DNA from: Verrucomicrobiales bacterium
GTDB lineage: Bacteria > Verrucomicrobiota > Verrucomicrobiia > Verrucomicrobiales > V1-33
NCBI GenBank assembly: GCA_018003315.1
Contig: JAGNEJ010000050.1
Coordinates: 1-35,013 of the forward strand
DNA: 35,013 nucleotides
Direction of reading: 5' to 3'
The stretch's first letter is position 1; every line of letters begins with the position of its first letter. Shown here one piece after another: positions 18,027 to 27,082 of the stretch. The position numbers and the translations under genes are program-made. Below the pieces are notes generated by a model. It was not told the origin of the DNA. It worked only from the letters and a program-made list of their open reading frames with translations, and made no database searches.

Positions 18027-18761
18027 TCATCCTCCCGCCAGAGCGGCGCGCAATGCAGCCATCTCCTCGTCGATCAACAGGTCACTGGGTGATTGCAGCG
18101 TGTCAGCGATCCCTGCACGGAGCAGCATCCGAAACCGCTGACGCAATCGATAAACGGCCTGCCGGACGGCATTGGTCTCAAGTCCAGTGGCCGCTGCGGC
18201 ATCAGCCATGGTCACGCCACCGTCGGCGGGATCCAGAAACGGCCGCAAGGCGGAGAAAAGGGAGAGTCGCCCGCGGGCTGCATATTCTTCCTCCAGGCGT
18301 TGGATGACACTGTCCAGCGTGGTCATGGCCCAGGCCCGGTCAAAGACCGTTTCCGAGGGCATGGTTGTCAACTGGGTGCCGAGCCATTGTTCTGCCTGCA
18401 GCGAGTCGAGCGGGAGTGGCGGAATTCCCCCGCCACGGCGCAACCGCGAGGCGCGGCGGGTGCTGTCGATCAAATCCCGATGAAAAACAGCCAGCAGAAA
18501 TGTCCGCAGGCGGCCTCTTTCTGGCGCTGCGGTGCGCAAAATTTCCATCCCGGAAATCCTGCCCAGAAAATCCTGCGTGGCGTCTTCCGCGTCCTGTTCA
18601 CTGCAGCCGGAACGCCGGGCATAGGCGTAAAGGGGCATCCAGTAAAGCCGACACAGTTCGTTGATCGCGGCCCGCGCCGGGGCACCCTCACCGGAGGCAG
18701 CGAGGACCATGCTCCACCGGGTCTGTGGAAATTGCGGACTTCCCTGGCGGGGATGGGACAT
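18027..18761 (-). CDS. ECF-type RNA polymerase sigma factor
   Basis: A 244-residue sigma-70-like factor. FPQTRWSMVLAA opens region 2, followed by the SEQDAEDATQDFLGRI helix and RLRTFLLAVFHRDLIDSTRR. Region 4 is a helix-turn-helix (TMADAAAATGLETNAVRQAV then YRLRQRF). The long linker and the TRWSMV start are typical of planctomycete and verrucomicrobial ECF factors found next to Ser/Thr kinases. The kinase gene here is divergent, 127 bases away, so the pair probably forms a signalling unit. No anti-sigma gene is adjacent. ATG 18773 is an equally possible start. Confidence 0.88.
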   Translation of the reverse strand: MSHPRQGSPQFPQTRWSMVLAASGEGAPARAAINELCRLYWMPLYAYARRSGCSEQDAEDATQDFLGRISGMEILRTAAPERGRLRTFLLAVFHRDLIDSTRRASRLRRGGGIPPLPLDSLQAEQWLGTQLTTMPSETVFDRAWAMTTLDSVIQRLEEEYAARGRLSLFSALRPFLDPADGGVTMADAAAATGLETNAVRQAVYRLRQRFRMLLRAGIADTLQSPSDLLIDEEMAALRAALAGG

Positions 18762-18888
18762 CGGTGGGGGCATTGCACACCGGTGCCACCCGGTTGGGCT
18801 GGCTCCGGCCGTTTGCGGAGAAATGAAAGCATAACGCCGCTCGATTTCCAGCGCTCAATCACTTACGTTCCATCCACTCACTGCTGCT

Positions 18889-21666
18889 ATGCCCGCTGAC
18901 GAGACTGCGCCGGAATTTTTCCGCCTCGCCGGACTTGATCCTGCGCGGGTCCTCCACGCCGCGCAGGAACTGCCAGACCTCCGCACGGATGAAGTGCCGA
19001 CAGTGGAAGATCTGGGTGCCCTGCTGCCGGAATACGAGGTGCAGGAGATGATTGGCCGCGGGGGCATGGGCGCGGTTTACCGGGCGGTGCAGCGAAAGCT
19101 GGCGCGGCCGGTGGCGATCAAGGTTTTGCCCGTGGAAATGGGGGATGCGGCGGGATTTGCACTCCGTTTTCGCCGCGAGGCCATGACGACTGCCGGAATC
19201 ATTCACCCTGACATTGTCGCCGTGCATGACGCCGGGGAAACGGTGGCCGGACATCACTACTACGTCATGGATTTGGTGGACGGGGAGGACCTCGCCCGGC
19301 GGATGGCACGCGGACGGCTGCCGGTGGAACAATGCGTGACGCTGCTTGCAGCGGTTTGCAATGCCGTGGAGGCTGCCCACGCGGCGGGCATCATCCACCG
19401 GGACATCAAGCCGTCCAATATTCTCCTGACAAAAGACGGTGCTCCCAAACTGGCGGATTTCGGGCTCGCACTGCTCACGGAGAAGCATCTCGAATACTCG
19501 CGCCTCACGCTCGGCGGCACCACCCTGGGCACGCTGGAATACGCTGCTCCGGAACAGCTCGCCGGGGCGGAGGTGACAGCAGCAAGCGACATCTACAGCC
19601 TCGGGGTGCTCGCTTACGAACTGCTCACCGGAGAACTGCCCCGCGGCGTATTTGACCCGCCTTCCGTTAGGAATCCGGAAATCGATTCCGCTTTTGATGG
19701 CGTGGTCCTGCGGGCTCTGCAGAGTGATCCGGCACGCCGCCACGGAAGCGCGGCGGAATTTCGCACCGCCCTGCTCCAGGCTGCCGACCGGCGCATTCGG
19801 GAGGAGCGCCGCCGCGCCGAGGCACTCCGAAAGCTCCGTCGCCGCACAGGCCTTGCTGCCATGACTGGAACGGCGGCCCTGTTGACATTCGGACTGGCCA
19901 TTTTCGCCTGGCAGCAACGAAAGCGGGCGGAAGCCGGGGAAGCCGAAGCCAACCAGCGCAGCCTCGCCGCAAACGCCGCCCAGAAGGAAACCGAGGATGT
20001 CATTCATTTTCTCCTGACGGATCTCCGGCAGCGGCTCGAAAGGATCGGCAATCTTGGCGCAATGGAGTCGGTGCTGGAACGTGCGGAAAAACATTTCCGG
20101 GAAAAATGCGAGGCCTCCCCCGGATCTGCCGATGCCGTGGTGCAGCTTGCCGATGCGCTGGTGATCAAGGCCGGAGTCCTCGCTGCCCGCGGCCTTCCAG
20201 ACGAGGCGGTGGCCTTGTTGGGCGAAGCCAAAGACTTGGCGGAGACCGCCCGGTCCCTCGATCCGAAGAACCGGGAGCGCCAGTCCCGCGTGGTTCAAGC
20301 ATGGAAGCACCTCAGCGAACAGCTTCTGGGCATGGGCAAGTTCCAGCCTGCACTGGACGCTGCCCGGCAGATGCTGCGCGAGGCGGAAAGCATCCAAAAT
20401 CCCCCTGCTCCCAGAGACGCTGCCGCAGCCCACCGAGCCTGCGCCAATGCGCTTGGTTATCTGGAGCAGCTCGACCAATGCCATGCAGAGTACCTCAAGG
20501 CCCAGGAAATCCTGACTGCGAAAGCGAAAACGCACCCGGAAGACCAGGCCACCAAGGATGATCTGGCGGCCCTGGACATGTCACTCGGTTCCCTGGCCGA
20601 AGAACGGAAGGACTACCCGCTCATGCTGCGCCACTTCACCGCGTGGCATCAATTCGTCAAACAAACCCACGGCACCGACGGCAGCACCTACTCCCATGCC
20701 GCGGTCCGTTTGGCTCTTGCGCTGGTGCTCAACCAGCGGGCTGCTGAAGCGCAGCCGCTGCTGACGGATGCCATCCGCATCGCGGAAGCAGACGTGGATG
20801 CCCGTCCCGGACACCGGGGACGCATGGGACATCTGCGCCAGTGCATGGTTGTGTACGCCCTGATGCAGGATCAGCGCGGCGAAAGCGCCTCTGCAGCGGA
20901 AATGCGACGGCGCATCTCCGCTATCGACGCGGCCATTGCGGCGACACCGGAGGAAGACGCAGCCGGCTCAATGGACCGTGTTGCGGACCGGCTGCAGAAG
21001 ACCGAGCAGCGGTTGTTTGCCGAATTGAAGAAAAATCCGGAAAACCCCGCCGCCCAGTATGCCTGGGCCATGGCCTCGGAGGATTTGGGCAAGCACATCG
21101 ACTCGATCGAAGGAATTCCCTCCGCCATGCAACACTACCAACGGCAAATGGCCAGGCTGGAACCGCTGCTTTCAGCCGCACCGGCAGACTCCTGGTGGAA
21201 CCTCGGCGCCAGCTACACCCTCAACCGCCTGGGTGAACTCAAGGAACGCACCCGCGACTGGGCAGGTGCAGAGCCGGTCTTTCGCCGTTCGTTCGACCTC
21301 CGATGCCGCACGCAGACTGCGCATCCTGGCAGCCCCAGGGAGCCCCGAAACATGGTCTCCACCGCCAGCCGGCTGGCCCGCTGCTTTCTGAATCAAAACC
21401 GCCCAGCCGAAGCGGAAGCGCTCTGGCTTTCGTTGCTGGAACAGTTGAAATCCGACGCATCGACCGGTCTGGAATGGCGCGCCTTGATCGCCACCAGCAT
21501 TCAGGAAACCCTCCCGGCCCTCACCTCCGATGCCGCTCGCAGCCTCGCCGCCAAAACCTGCGATTTTTTCCTGGTCAGGGGCGAGGCCTCACTGTCCGCC
21601 GCCGAAAAGGACGGGCTGCACGCCATGAAAAGTCTCGCCACCAAAGCCACAGCCCCGCAGCGGTAA
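18889..21666 (+). CDS. Membrane Ser/Thr protein kinase with TPR-like C-terminal region
   Basis: 925 residues. An intact Hanks-type kinase domain spans about 48-305: glycine loop GRGGMGAVY at 56-64, catalytic K78 (VAIKVLP), HRDIKPSN with D172, DFG at D190, and APEQ in the activation segment. One transmembrane helix follows a basic stretch around 325-343. The remaining 580 residues are helical and repeat-like, resembling TPRs (for example EYLKAQEIL, AAEAQPLLTDAIRIA), and should lie outside the inner membrane. Most kinase-critical residues are present, so it should be active. Partnership with the divergent ECF sigma factor is inferred from gene order and family precedent. Confidence 0.92.
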   Translation: MPADETAPEFFRLAGLDPARVLHAAQELPDLRTDEVPTVEDLGALLPEYEVQEMIGRGGMGAVYRAVQRKLARPVAIKVLPVEMGDAAGFALRFRREAMTTAGIIHPDIVAVHDAGETVAGHHYYVMDLVDGEDLARRMARGRLPVEQCVTLLAAVCNAVEAAHAAGIIHRDIKPSNILLTKDGAPKLADFGLALLTEKHLEYSRLTLGGTTLGTLEYAAPEQLAGAEVTAASDIYSLGVLAYELLTGELPRGVFDPPSVRNPEIDSAFDGVVLRALQSDPARRHGSAAEFRTALLQAADRRIREERRRAEALRKLRRRTGLAAMTGTAALLTFGLAIFAWQQRKRAEAGEAEANQRSLAANAAQKETEDVIHFLLTDLRQRLERIGNLGAMESVLERAEKHFREKCEASPGSADAVVQLADALVIKAGVLAARGLPDEAVALLGEAKDLAETARSLDPKNRERQSRVVQAWKHLSEQLLGMGKFQPALDAARQMLREAESIQNPPAPRDAAAAHRACANALGYLEQLDQCHAEYLKAQEILTAKAKTHPEDQATKDDLAALDMSLGSLAEERKDYPLMLRHFTAWHQFVKQTHGTDGSTYSHAAVRLALALVLNQRAAEAQPLLTDAIRIAEADVDARPGHRGRMGHLRQCMVVYALMQDQRGESASAAEMRRRISAIDAAIAATPEEDAAGSMDRVADRLQKTEQRLFAELKKNPENPAAQYAWAMASEDLGKHIDSIEGIPSAMQHYQRQMARLEPLLSAAPADSWWNLGASYTLNRLGELKERTRDWAGAEPVFRRSFDLRCRTQTAHPGSPREPRNMVSTASRLARCFLNQNRPAEAEALWLSLLEQLKSDASTGLEWRALIATSIQETLPALTSDAARSLAAKTCDFFLVRGEASLSAAEKDGLHAMKSLATKATAPQR

Positions 21667-21842: not shown

Positions 21843-22721
21843 TCAGGCAAGCGCCATCGCTGCAAGGTGTTGCGGGCTGGTTCCGCAGCATCCGCCAACG
21901 ATGGTGATGCCGATGGAACGGAGCTTGTTCGCCAGTGTTGCCATTTCAGCAGGCGTGGCGTCATAATGAATTTCGCCATGGCGGATTTTCGGTGCGCCGG
22001 CATTGGGCTGCAGGATGGTGGGGCCTCCGGCGGCAGCGGCGACGATCTGGCGTCCGAGTTCAAGGTAATCGTCGAGCGCCAGGTCGGTTCCGCAATTGGT
22101 GCCGACGATATCCGCTCCCGCCTCGCAAGCGGCGCGAATGGCAGCGGCCACGGGAGTGCCCATCATCGTGCGGAATTCCCCGCCGCTCCTTTGGAACGAC
22201 CAGGTGCCGATCACCGGAAGATCGGCGACCGCCTTGGCTGCACGGACGGCGACAGCAAGTTCCGCGGGATCGCTCATGGTTTCCACGAGAACGGCATCCG
22301 CGCCACCGGCGACCAGGGCGCTGATTTGCTCGCGGAAAACCGCGTCCAGCTCTTCCCTGGTGGTGTCGCCCAGTGGTTCAAGGAAATCCCCGAACGGTCC
22401 GACATCCCCCAGCACCCAGCCTTCCGGCCCGGCGGCCTGGGCTGCCAATTCCGCCGCCCGGCGGTTCCACTCGGACACTTTGGAACCAAGTCCGTGGCGG
22501 TCCAGCATGCAGCGGCTGCCGCCAAACGAGTTCGTGGTGATGAGTCGGCACCCGGCATGGCGGTAGGCCTGGTGGACGCTGAGAATTTCGTCAGGACGTT
22601 CGGCATTCCAGCGCATGCCGCATTCTCCAGGTGCAAGTCCGCGCTGCATAAGCTGGGTGCCCATGGCCCCGTCACAGGTTAGGGCCGTTTGCCGGCAGGC
22701 TTGGAGCAGGGGGACGTTCAT
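21843..22721 (-). CDS. Zinc-dependent homocysteine S-methyltransferase
   Basis: A 292-residue (beta/alpha)8 barrel of the Hcy/Pfam S-methyl_trans family. DGAMGTQLMQRGL starts the barrel, and the three zinc cysteines are C210 (GTNCGT) and C278-C279 (GGCCGTSP). It moves a methyl group to homocysteine to make methionine. It corresponds to the first domain of MetH, without folate, corrinoid or reactivation domains. The corrinoid protein gene upstream overlaps it by ATGA, so that protein is the likely methyl carrier. A betaine- or S-methylmethionine-type enzyme is the alternative, but the coupling to a corrinoid gene argues against it. Confidence 0.9.
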   Translation of the reverse strand: MNVPLLQACRQTALTCDGAMGTQLMQRGLAPGECGMRWNAERPDEILSVHQAYRHAGCRLITTNSFGGSRCMLDRHGLGSKVSEWNRRAAELAAQAAGPEGWVLGDVGPFGDFLEPLGDTTREELDAVFREQISALVAGGADAVLVETMSDPAELAVAVRAAKAVADLPVIGTWSFQRSGGEFRTMMGTPVAAAIRAACEAGADIVGTNCGTDLALDDYLELGRQIVAAAAGGPTILQPNAGAPKIRHGEIHYDATPAEMATLANKLRSIGITIVGGCCGTSPQHLAAMALA

Positions 22722-23353
22722 GGGTTTTCCATCAGTTTCAATGCAAGCGTCACCGCGCTGGCGGCATCGGGGCTGTAGCCGTCTGCTCCAATCTCCTCGC
22801 AGTAATCCTGGGTGACCGGAGCGCCGCCAATCATCACCCGCACGCTGGCCTGATCCGACGCACGCAGGGCATCAATGGTTCGTTTCATCGCCGGCATGGT
22901 GGTGGTCAGGAGGGCGGAAAGACAGCAGAGATGAGCCCCATGGTCGCGAACCGCATTCACAAATGCCTCCGGCGAAACATTGGTGCCGAGATCGACAAGG
23001 CCGAAATTGGCTCCTTTGAGCATGACAGCGACGAGGTTTTTGCCGATGTCGTGGAGATCCCCCTGCACCGTGCCGATGACGGCGGTGAATTCCGGCTTGA
23101 TGCCGGCATCTGCCAGCAGCGGTTCCAGCATCGCCATGCATTCCTTCATCGCCCGTGCCGCAATGAGCATTTCGGGAACGAACACCTCGCCGTCTTTGAA
23201 TCGCTCACCGATGGCCCTCATGCCCGGCACCAGTCCCTGTTCGACAATATCCAGCGGCTTCATGCCTTCCGAGAGCATCCCCTGGGTCAACTGCCGGGCT
23301 TCAACGCGCCTACCCGTTTCGACAACCGTTGCTAGGTCGGTGAATTTGCTCAT
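22718..23353 (-). CDS. Corrinoid (cobalamin-binding) methyl-carrier protein, MtxC type
   Basis: 211 residues. The N-terminal half is the four-helix B12-binding cap (KPLDIVEQGLVPGMRAIGER, EVFVPEMLIAARAM). The C-terminal half is the Rossmann-like B12 domain with GDLHDIGKN, where H101 should be the lower cobalt ligand, then GGAPVTQDYCEEIGADGYSP. Such proteins (MtaC, MttC, MtgC and the middle domains of MetH) carry methyl groups between two methyltransferases. ATG 23353 is chosen from homology. The 182 bases between it and the activator gene upstream hold no other gene. Confidence 0.92.
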   Translation of the reverse strand: MSKFTDLATVVETGRRVEARQLTQGMLSEGMKPLDIVEQGLVPGMRAIGERFKDGEVFVPEMLIAARAMKECMAMLEPLLADAGIKPEFTAVIGTVQGDLHDIGKNLVAVMLKGANFGLVDLGTNVSPEAFVNAVRDHGAHLCCLSALLTTTMPAMKRTIDALRASDQASVRVMIGGAPVTQDYCEEIGADGYSPDAASAVTLALKLMENP

Positions 23354-23535
23354 GCTGCGGGGAGAGATACTGCGTTTCCAGTGGCTGGCTTTTCGGGTCC
23401 TGCGCGGCACCTGGGTGGAGGGTGCTGCACAGGCCACGATGCCACTGATGCCAAAACTGCCAAATCCAGAATGAGGCAATCTCGCGATCCGAATCATTCA
23501 AATGAGCACCGCAGCCGGCTGAAATTCGCCGACAT

Positions 23536-25173
23536 TCACGGGAGGCTCAGGTGGTCAATGAAGGTGTCTTCGAATTCCGGATGCAGATTGAGTTCCACGA
23601 TTTCAACTCGCGAACGGAATTCCTCCATGTCCGACAGGCTCTGCCGGTCCAGCAGGCCGATCAAGGCCCCCGCGAGGGAAGTATTGCCGACCACGCTCAC
23701 CTGCTCCGGCTTGAATCCCGGAAGCAGGCCGATGGCGATGGCGTGGGCCACATCGACGTGCATGCCGAAGCCTCCGGCGAGGTGAACACGGCCAATGCGC
23801 CGGGCATCCGTGTTCGCGACGGAGAGCAGGATTTCAATCCCCGCGCCAATCGCAGCCTTGGCTTGCAGCAGTTGGGCGATGTCCAGTTCGCTGATGCGTG
23901 GATGCTGGTGCATCGCAGGACGAAACGCGATGCCGGAAGGGTCCGCAAAACGATGCCCCTCGGGAAGGTGGCCCCAGACTTCCCGGTCAAAGCGGCCATT
24001 GGCACGGAGCAGTCCGCTGCGACGCGCATCGGATAGGAAATCGATGTAGGCGGAGCCGCAGATGCCGCCATCATTGGTCACGGGGACAGAACCGATGGTT
24101 TCACAGGCGATTTCGCCACCGCTGATGCGGATGCGGCTGATGGCACCGGCCTGCGCTCTGGTGCCGCTCGTGAGTCCGGCGCCTTCGAAAGCCGGACCTG
24201 CGGCGGTGGCGCAGGCGAGCAGTCGACCGTCGCTGGACAGGACCATTTCACCATTGGTGCCCATGTCCACCAGCAGGCTGGGTGCGGCATCGAGCATCAT
24301 GCCGGTGGCCTGAACCCCGGCGACGATATCCGCGCCGACATAAGCGGAGATGCCGGGCAGCAGCCGAATGGGGGCATCCGGCGGAAGTCCGGCTCGGTCA
24401 ATACCAAAGGCAGCGGCGCTTTCGGTTCGACCGTGGAGGAATCGGGCCTGGAAAGGTGCCACCCCCAGCGGAGTCGTATCCTCATCGGCGAGAATGTGGA
24501 GCATCGTGGTGTTCCCGGCGATCACTCCGCCGGCGATCCGGCTGAGATCGCGCCCTGCCCGCTGCAGTGCTTTGTCCAGCAGGGGCCTCAGCGTTTCCGT
24601 GATGAAGGCACGGCGCATGTCGCGGCGCGCCTCCGGAACAGCACCGACGCCGATCCGCGTGATGACGTTGTCGCCAAACCGGATCTGCGCATTAAAGGCC
24701 CCAGCGCGGGAGAGGATGGTTCCCGTGTTCAGATCGACTAGCAAAATGACCGCAGTGGTGGTGCCGAGATCCAGCGCGAAACCAGTGTCCCGCAGGCCAT
24801 CGGATGGAATCGACGGATTCAGCGTGCAGGGCACGTCCACGAGGAATGTTTCGCTGACCTGAGGCGCGTGACGAATGCTCGCCTGATGCGGCACGCGGAT
24901 GACCACCGCACGGGCATCCGCAATGCGCATGCGGCAGGCGCGGAACAGTCCTGAGGTGTAGCGCTGCCCATCCGCATCCGTCAGGGCACCCTCCCGCAAT
25001 TCAACGATGCAGCCGCGGCAGAGTCCGCGCTGGCCGCAGCGGGTGTTGAGCGGATGGCCGGTCCGGGCCAGCAGTTCGGCCAGATTGTGCGGTGCGTCTG
25101 CGCCGGAGATGCGCAGCAGCCTCGGAGTCCCTGCTGGTTCGCCTTCCAGAGGAGTCACTTCCGCGGCGTTCAT
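23536..25173 (-). CDS. RACE-type ATP-dependent corrinoid activation protein
   Basis: 545 residues. The N-terminal plant-type [2Fe-2S] ferredoxin domain has C46, C52, C55 and C80 (RCGQRGLCRGC and FRACRM). The rest is the ASKHA-fold DUF4445 region with phosphate loops FALDLGTTTAVILL and LLVDMGTNGEMVL, and a late LAGGFGMHVD. Proteins of this build (RamA-like function, RACo, RACE) reduce inactive Co(II) corrinoid back to Co(I) using ATP. It would service the corrinoid protein encoded next. The start overlaps the DUF1638 stop as ATGA. Confidence 0.92.
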   Translation of the reverse strand: MNAAEVTPLEGEPAGTPRLLRISGADAPHNLAELLARTGHPLNTRCGQRGLCRGCIVELREGALTDADGQRYTSGLFRACRMRIADARAVVIRVPHQASIRHAPQVSETFLVDVPCTLNPSIPSDGLRDTGFALDLGTTTAVILLVDLNTGTILSRAGAFNAQIRFGDNVITRIGVGAVPEARRDMRRAFITETLRPLLDKALQRAGRDLSRIAGGVIAGNTTMLHILADEDTTPLGVAPFQARFLHGRTESAAAFGIDRAGLPPDAPIRLLPGISAYVGADIVAGVQATGMMLDAAPSLLVDMGTNGEMVLSSDGRLLACATAAGPAFEGAGLTSGTRAQAGAISRIRISGGEIACETIGSVPVTNDGGICGSAYIDFLSDARRSGLLRANGRFDREVWGHLPEGHRFADPSGIAFRPAMHQHPRISELDIAQLLQAKAAIGAGIEILLSVANTDARRIGRVHLAGGFGMHVDVAHAIAIGLLPGFKPEQVSVVGNTSLAGALIGLLDRQSLSDMEEFRSRVEIVELNLHPEFEDTFIDHLSLP

Positions 25174-25910
25174 GTGGCTTCGCACCCAGGGGCCGTCTTC
25201 ATCACCCGGTCATCGTTGGACATGGCGATGCGGCGTCCCGGGGGCACCACCAGAAAGCGTTCGTCATCCCACGGCCCAGTGAGCAGAGTCCGGAGCAGGG
25301 CGGGATCGCCCCTGACATGTTCGCATTTCCACCCAAGGGCATCTGCGCAGCGGCGGGTGTAGGCAAGCTCCTCCGGCGCGTCGGGCGTGCCGGGATCGAT
25401 GAACGTGGCCGTATGATAGTGTCTCCACAGATCACGTTCCGATTCCAGCAAAAACTCGACATCCTCGGAGTCGAATTTTGCGGCAAAGTCCCTCCGGAGT
25501 TGCTCCTCACGATCCGGTCCCGGCACGCGGCGCGCCCGATTCCATCCGGGCGTGTAGTGGTAGCAGCCGGGACAGGCGGCGGCGCGCTGGGCATGCAGTT
25601 CCTTGCTGCCGAGAAGCACGGTGATGCAGTCGTGGGCGCGCGGAATCACCAGCAGGTGACGTTTCGCGCACAGTCCCGCCGTGCCGCAGCCGCACAGCCC
25701 ATAGGCCAGCACAATGGCCTCAATGTCATCACGCGAGTCCAGTTCATCCACCGCGGCCTGGAGTGCCCGGCGCATTTCCGGCGGACGGTCGTGCAGACCC
25801 ATTTCCAGCAGTTTTTCGATGACGATGTGGGACATCCCGCGTGCCACCATCCGCAACTCACTCAGAAACACCTCACAGCCTAGCAATGCGATGGGTCTGG
25901 GATGGTTCAT
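25170..25910 (-). CDS. DUF1638 protein linked to corrinoid methyltransfer
   Basis: A 246-residue protein of the DUF1638 family. LLGCEVFLSELR lies near the start, YGLCGCGTAGLCAKRH in the centre, then VIPRAHDCITVLLGS and ACPGCYHYTPGW. Conserved cysteines and histidines suggest a metal or cofactor site. The family has no proven reaction but is typically found beside MttB-type methyltransferases, corrinoid proteins and RamA/RACE activators. Here it is the first gene of the series, coupled by ATGA to the activator. No cobalamin riboswitch was seen in the 92 bases upstream. Confidence 0.82.
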   Translation of the reverse strand: MNHPRPIALLGCEVFLSELRMVARGMSHIVIEKLLEMGLHDRPPEMRRALQAAVDELDSRDDIEAIVLAYGLCGCGTAGLCAKRHLLVIPRAHDCITVLLGSKELHAQRAAACPGCYHYTPGWNRARRVPGPDREEQLRRDFAAKFDSEDVEFLLESERDLWRHYHTATFIDPGTPDAPEELAYTRRCADALGWKCEHVRGDPALLRTLLTGPWDDERFLVVPPGRRIAMSNDDRVMKTAPGCEAT

Positions 25911-26002: not shown

Positions 26003-27082
26003 CTAACTTTCAAAAAGGTTGCCGATGCCGCTGAGCAGGCCGCCGGAGTCATTACTTTTGACGCCCACGGCATTTTGCAGAATGCGGTCGGCCAGTTTGG
26101 AGAGCGGCAGGCTCTGGAGCCACACGGTGCCATGCCCCCGCAGGGTTACCAGGAACAGGCCTTCGCCGCCGAAGACCATGCTTTTGAGGTTGCCGGCCCG
26201 CTGAATGGAATACTCGATGCCCGGAGTGAATGCGACCAGGCATCCCGTGTCCACCAGCACGGTTTCTCCGCGAAGGTCCCGCTTGATGATGGTGCCGCCG
26301 GCGTGGACAAACGCGAGTCCGTCCCCTTCGAGCTTTTGCAGGATAAATCCTTCTCCGCCAAACAGACCCGCGCCAAATTTCTGTGCGAGCGCAATGCCAA
26401 CCCTGGTGCCATACGCCGCGCAAAGAAACGCGTCTTTCTGGCAGAACAGCGTGCCGCCCAGTTGGCTCAGGTCCATCGGCAAGACCTTGCCGGGATAGGG
26501 AGCGGCAAAGGCCACTTTTTTCTTTCCGCCGCCACGGTTGGTGAAATGGGTCATGAACAGGCTTTCCCCGGTCAGGGCGCGTTTGCCCACCTGTTTGAGC
26601 CGGTCCCACATGCTGGGATTGGGATTCGAGCCGTCCCCCATCTTGGTCTCAAATTGGATGTCGGCATCCATGTAGTTCATGGCACCGGCCTCGGCGATGA
26701 CGACTTCTCCGGGATCCAGTTCGACCTCCACGATCTGCATTTCGTTGCCCAGAATTTCAAACTCAATTTCATGGGAACGCCGGGCGGAGCCTTGTGAGGA
26801 AACCGCCGGTGGCGCCCCGGCAAGTGCTGGCGCGGAAGCTGTGGGAGGCGGCGACACCGGGGGCGGCGGAAGGAAAGGCGCTGTCAGCGGAGGCGGGGGC
26901 GAAACGGGAGTCGGAGGTGCCAGATGGGGAAAGCCCTCCTGCAAGGGGCGCCAGTTGGGCCATCCGGCCACCCAGACGAGCGTCTGCAGGGAGATTTGTC
27001 CGCTGTTCAACAGACCGGGGAGTTCTGCTTCGGTGGTGGTGGTGGGCTGCCGGTTCGGTCCGGCGTAATAGACTTGAGACAT
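26003..27082 (-). CDS. GYF-like plus AIM24 (TIGR00266) protein
   Basis: 359 residues. Residues about 3-50 resemble a GYF_2 domain ([26 protein letters not shown]), a proline-rich linker runs to about 100, and the rest is an AIM24/DUF124 double beta-trefoil-like domain ([40 protein letters not shown]). GYF_2 domains bind proline-rich peptides or act at membranes, and AIM24 proteins have mostly unknown roles in bacteria. There is no signal peptide, so it is probably cytoplasmic. The 159 bases upstream, shared with a divergent gene, carry an inverted repeat. Confidence 0.85.

Follow-up and report, generated by a model that had tools for sequence, protein, structure and literature searches.

Four adjacent genes of a Verrucomicrobiales bacterium probably make up one half of a modular demethylation system, the half that passes methyl groups to homocysteine and keeps the corrinoid active; the donor would act in trans, and a neighboring MtaB would have been lost or never acquired. 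The genes lie on the minus strand of a 35,013-nt stretch, here called the window (GCA_018003315.1, contig JAGNEJ010000050.1, positions 1-35,013). The first encodes a DUF1638 protein (25170-25910; 246 amino acids; PF07796, 118 bits), followed by a ferredoxin-ASKHA corrinoid reductive activator of the RACo/RamA/DUF4445 type (23536-25173; PF17651 and PF14574), a stand-alone, putatively MtaC/MtgC-like corrinoid-binding protein (22718-23353; PF02607 and PF02310) and a stand-alone zinc homocysteine S-methyltransferase (21843-22721; 292 amino acids; PF02574, 209 bits). Open reading frames and Pfam matches bear out the genes and their order as given in the original prediction. The predicted ATGA stop/start overlaps at 2/3 junctions are likewise present in the sequence, joining DUF1638 to the activator (25173-25170) and the corrinoid protein to the homocysteine enzyme (22721-22718). 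The activator starts at ATG 25173, while the mechanical reading frame opens at GTG 25185. The sole junction without overlap is the intergenic stretch before the corrinoid gene (23354-23535), defined by a start chosen by alignment. The corrinoid frame can be read from ATG 23497, which leaves a gap of 38 bp. Because relatives begin at the methionine of MSKF, which aligns with 23353, the ATG at 23497 is probably too early; with the relatives' start the gap is about 182 bp.

The canonical MetH plan places the homocysteine, folate, B12 and S-adenosylmethionine-activation domains in one chain. In the window separate chains carry the domains, and their key residues are intact, as expected of the split corrinoid system that had been predicted. 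The homocysteine enzyme has the PF02574 barrel core and its zinc cysteines, C210, C278 and C279. Among solved structures it comes nearest to MetH, whose homocysteine domains match it at E = 2e-44 and 4e-43, while MmuM-type enzymes (4e-14) and betaine-homocysteine methyltransferase (4e-13) are more distant; this order fits an enzyme taking its methyl group from a corrinoid. The NCBIfam model PRK07534 scores it at 234 bits, with a cut-off of 338. These features support homocysteine as the likely acceptor. Another thiol or a selenol, taking part in the methyl-sulfur or selenium salvage that mlp clusters have been proposed to perform, is a very improbable acceptor. URO-D/corrinoid clusters have been tied to methyl-sulfur and selenide metabolism in work by Kountz and Balskus (PMC10418091), and an MtaA-like URO-D protein with a zinc motif is encoded elsewhere in this genome; however, the PF02574 core has MetH-like relatives and no mlp-type gene occurs in the window cluster.

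The corrinoid protein matches B12-binding_2 (74 bits) and B12-binding (89 bits) and retains the cobalamin motif DxHxxG as D99-x-H101-x-x-G104. MtaC models score it at 111-115 bits against cut-offs of 420-450. The activator matches the RACo middle (136 bits) and RACo_C_ter (219 bits) domains, and its residues 127-541 (approximately 415) align with its closest solved structures, PDB 3zyy (E = 2e-76) and 4c1n (E = 4e-75). An N-terminal C-x5-C-x2-C...C set (C46/C52/C55/C80) supplies 2Fe-2S cysteines that are invariant in the alignment. With its ASKHA domain pair and N-terminal 2Fe-2S ferredoxin, the protein has the RACE/RACo-type architecture. ATP-dependent reduction of the corrinoid protein by the activator is likely on these sequence features, in agreement with the predicted reactivation by ATP and an Fe-S protein.

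In DUF1638, C12, H40, C73, H93, D94 and C95 are invariant in a 33-sequence alignment. Because the cysteines and histidines are invariant, they suggest a metal or cofactor site. The AlphaFold2 model is confident (pLDDT 96). It had no Foldseek match among solved structures at E ≤ 0.001, and a second look gave a best Z of 7.6, to asparaginase and sugar-binding-protein folds, which is within the uninformative range of that tool. In many loci the DUF1638 gene immediately precedes that of RACo, with the -4 spacing of the window in at least 11 others. This conserved coupling makes DUF1638 a well-defined candidate for reactivation assays. The passages of Price et al. 2018 (PMC5764234) on such genes offer no functional proposal for it. 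A plasmid collection searched with the window DUF1638 gave no match, but since pSymB of Sinorhizobium meliloti carries an annotated DUF1638 gene, this search is too weak to show absence.

No donor-type methyltransferase gene was recognized on either side of the four genes among the window reading frames, by Pfam or in a search for remnants, and no MtaB remnant was found in the window. The genome, assembled to 5.09 Mb in 155 contigs and 96.5% complete, has no match to MttB (PF06253), and neither it nor 12 members of its family has a match to MtaB (PF12176). Two URO-D-family proteins were found. One, of 480 residues, is encoded on contig C36 directly downstream of a second stand-alone corrinoid protein (L010, 4254-6368); it lacks the HxC...C motif and matches no NCBIfam family. 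Tetranucleotide use on C36 is like that of the rest of the genome. The other, on contig C47 (L012, 1444-2505), is MtaA/CmuA-like and carries the HxC...C motif, which binds zinc in MtaA-type enzymes; its hemE score, 76.8 bits, is below the cut-off of 302.95. Because both proteins look unlike HemE, HemE may be absent from the genome. The original prediction that the donor enzyme is missing therefore describes the neighborhood and not the genome. It holds in that there is no adjacent donor and that no MttB, MtaB or stand-alone methyl-tetrahydrofolate enzyme was found, but unlinked URO-D-family candidates exist on C36 and C47.

Could the methyl group come from methyl-tetrahydrofolate instead? In that case the set would be a split methionine synthase of the Phaeobacter type, with the folate module provided by another protein such as the pterin domain of MetH. 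The subunit families, together with DUF1638 and DUF4445, are those of Phaeobacter inhibens, and contig C142 encodes a full canonical MetH with a pterin domain (1272 residues, well above NCBIfam cut-offs). However, no stand-alone PF00809 methyl-folate methyltransferase was found in the genome. All 3 PF00809 matches are accounted for, one in MetH and two in proteins called dihydropteroate-synthase-like from the motif NVTPDSFSDGG in one and a similar motif in the other. The window homocysteine enzyme also groups with MtaB- and URO-D-linked enzymes and not with those of S. meliloti and Paracoccus. We consider this explanation unlikely.

Gene order was compared across relatives, as had been proposed. 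RACo homologues occur in 138/388 Verrucomicrobiota genomes and also in 80 named loci, and the same core recurs beside MtaB, URO-D arrays or MttB. Most homologous loci with the homocysteine enzyme and RACo also carry a donor enzyme. MtaB and the homocysteine enzyme accompany the core in L061, L062, L113 and L128, and two loci from Neomarinimicrobiota, L158 and L159, have MttB with it. The loci with the homocysteine enzyme and RACo that have URO-D enzymes beside the core, frequently as arrays, are L048, L049, L117, L121, L123, L147, L154, L162, L169 and L213, and L120 also has URO-D enzymes with the core. L063 has no linked donor of the MtaB, URO-D or MttB types. A Planctomycetota contig (L131) carries an almost identical set of the same four genes with no recognized donor and ends just beyond it. 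The original prediction was said to be endangered by a full MetH combined with relatives in which the cluster occurs only beside an MttB-type gene. The full MetH is present and most homologous clusters do have a donor, but that donor is more often MtaB or URO-D than MttB, and the donor-less set on L131 is nearly identical.

Two observations concern these loci themselves. L158 (8490-13759) holds corrinoid, DUF1638, RACo, homocysteine enzyme and MttB-homologue genes with, by eye, GcvT- and dimethylglycine-dehydrogenase-like genes nearby, a content that would fit conversion of betaine to methionine. One putative regulator-like protein (approximately 61% identical) recurs beside RACo or DUF1638 in three loci among the nearest relatives (L113, 11602-12357; L114, 1654-2388; L139, 5571-6344); by eye only, it resembles a PocR-type sensor.

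In the homocysteine enzyme tree the window protein falls in a group (98/95) with those of L113, L131, L147 and L128 and copies from genomes G119 and G023. The bmt-type enzymes of S. meliloti and Paracoccus lie elsewhere, and the window protein is outside the bmt/MtgE clade. In the corrinoid protein tree the window protein is joined by those of L137 (99/95) and L053 (100/94), which are encoded next to MtaB, as is the corrinoid protein of L113 and others. The window RACo is the only one found in its genome, and the other 12 family genomes compared, including one from the same genus, have none (13 in all). Flanking genes on both sides match family members at approximately 66-77% nucleotide identity while the cluster itself has no match. 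Contamination of the contig was considered and is unlikely, because the genes on both sides match the family while the cluster does not. Since the flanks are not on one contig in relatives, no empty site can be demonstrated. The set looks to have been acquired from a lineage with MtaB next to the corrinoid gene, and the simplest history suggested by these comparisons is acquisition of an MtaB-linked set from which MtaB is now absent.

A rival explanation is a maintenance remnant, in which MtaB was lost, no productive donor took its place, and the set may decay or only demethylate stray methyl-corrinoids. The MtaB-adjoining relatives of the corrinoid protein, the failure to find MtaB in the genome and the restriction of RACo to one family member in 13 are all consistent with such a remnant. 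Against it, none of the four reading frames is disrupted, the catalytic residues are in place and both translational couplings are retained, and we regard a remnant as improbable.

Co-occurrence was examined in the 388 Verrucomicrobiota genomes, counting the stand-alone homocysteine enzyme at E ≤ 1e-55 in frames of <700 residues. RACo is present in 84/87 genomes with the enzyme versus 54/301 without it (Fisher p = 1e-43), in sets transcribed from result tables, with non-independent genomes and without an equally rare control gene. Counted by family, RACo is present in 41/41 with the enzyme versus 9/40 without it. This near-exclusive association can serve as an annotation rule. The C36-type URO-D recurs, with 55-66% identity, in a few families scattered across the phylum. 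Among the 13 genomes that have it, 12 have RACo and 12 have the homocysteine enzyme.

Several results weigh against the main reading, including the part given to the C36 protein as methyl source. By family the link between C36-type URO-D and RACo is weaker (8/8 versus 42/73, p = 0.017, without a matched control gene), and that with the homocysteine enzyme is weak (p approximately 0.03). The C36-type gene adjoins a corrinoid protein gene in only 2/12 genomes and was never beside the homocysteine enzyme in the stretches read around it. On C36 it has its own corrinoid partner, only approximately 53% identical to that of the window. Since the genome has a full MetH, the four genes are not needed for methionine as such. 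The donor search covered some families, and MtrH-type enzymes (PF02007) were not searched for. Finally, because the genome is 96.5% complete and lies in 155 contigs, MtaB or another real donor may be in its unassembled part, as the position of MtaB next to the corrinoid gene in relatives would allow. Yet the cluster is mid-contig, and the homocysteine gene sits, with its overlap, in the place where relatives have MtaB. An unassembled donor is therefore quite unlikely in our view.

Taken as an acceptor half supplied in trans, the set would work as follows. A demethylase encoded elsewhere would methylate the corrinoid protein; the most likely candidate is the C36 URO-D encoded with the second corrinoid protein, and the MtaA-like C47 protein is a less likely one. 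The PF02574 enzyme would bind homocysteine via its zinc and transfer to it the methyl group of the corrinoid protein, yielding methionine. Co(I) oxidized to Co(II) would be re-reduced by the ferredoxin-ASKHA protein with ATP, and DUF1638 may assist this step. What the sequences show is the gene content, the conserved catalytic residues, the co-occurrence, the linkage in relatives and the trees; the acceptor, the donor, the direction of methyl flow and the part of DUF1638 are inferred. A broader reading is more speculative, and we put it forward as a possibility only. Verrucomicrobiota, Planctomycetota and other phyla may share a widespread, undescribed route in which MtaB or URO-D demethylases act on methanol or on methylated compounds of plants and algae, and the methyl groups pass straight to homocysteine via a single corrinoid core that is serviced by RACo and DUF1638 and for which donors are interchangeable. 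In the present genome the donor and acceptor modules would lie on different contigs and act in trans. If this is true, methionine synthesis in many uncultured bacteria can obtain its methyl groups straight from demethylation without passing through folate, and such stand-alone homocysteine enzymes should not be named betaine-homocysteine methyltransferases.

Genes next to the cluster appear unrelated on one side, where an ECF-type sigma factor and a divergent Ser/Thr kinase with a TPR-like region occupy 18027-21666. The same-strand gene immediately upstream of DUF1638 (26003-27082) encodes a protein with an AIM24 domain and a GYF_2-like region at its N-terminus. Rfam gave no cobalamin riboswitch match in the window or in the C36 and MetH stretches.

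The original prediction set the split, RACE-serviced plan apart from known corrinoid systems, but precedents exist in Phaeobacter (PMC5764234) and in S. meliloti and Ruegeria pomeroyi (PMC12478193). Price et al. 2018 report genetic evidence that P. inhibens makes methionine with separate PF02574, PF00809 and B12-binding subunits plus ferredoxin-DUF4445 and DUF1638 proteins, and that some genomes with Phaeobacter-type genes also have a MetH with its activation domain (PMC5764234). The window set is similar in its stand-alone PF02574 and B12 subunits, ferredoxin-DUF4445 activator and DUF1638. In contrast, P. inhibens uses a methyl-folate subunit (PF00809), of which no stand-alone version was found in this genome, and lacks the MetH activation domain, whereas this genome has a full MetH. 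In addition, all four window genes are adjacent and the homocysteine enzyme belongs to another clade. Mausz 2025 (PMC12478193) describes related sets in S. meliloti and R. pomeroyi and joins the split system to betaine demethylation. The corrinoid protein, homocysteine enzyme and reactivation proteins of the window resemble MtgBCDE of R. pomeroyi and the S. meliloti locus, and S. meliloti also has a full MetH, but those genomes have the MttB-family donor MtgB and MtgD, neither of which was found here. As in MtaABC methanol:coenzyme M and acetogen/mlp systems, the corrinoid protein appears MtaC-like, with nearest relatives beside MtaB, and activation is of the RACo type. Unlike in those systems there is no MtaB, and a homocysteine methyltransferase stands where the others have a coenzyme M or folate methyltransferase as acceptor enzyme. 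Compared with RACo itself (3zyy, 4c1n), the expected client of the activator is a MetH-like corrinoid protein. Full-text literature searches, with subscription journals and most preprints outside their coverage, did not turn up any account of homocysteine versions linked to MtaB or URO-D. While we infer its mechanism and its donor, what is new here is a donor-less member of these split systems in a MetH-bearing genome, with relatives linked to MtaB and URO-D.
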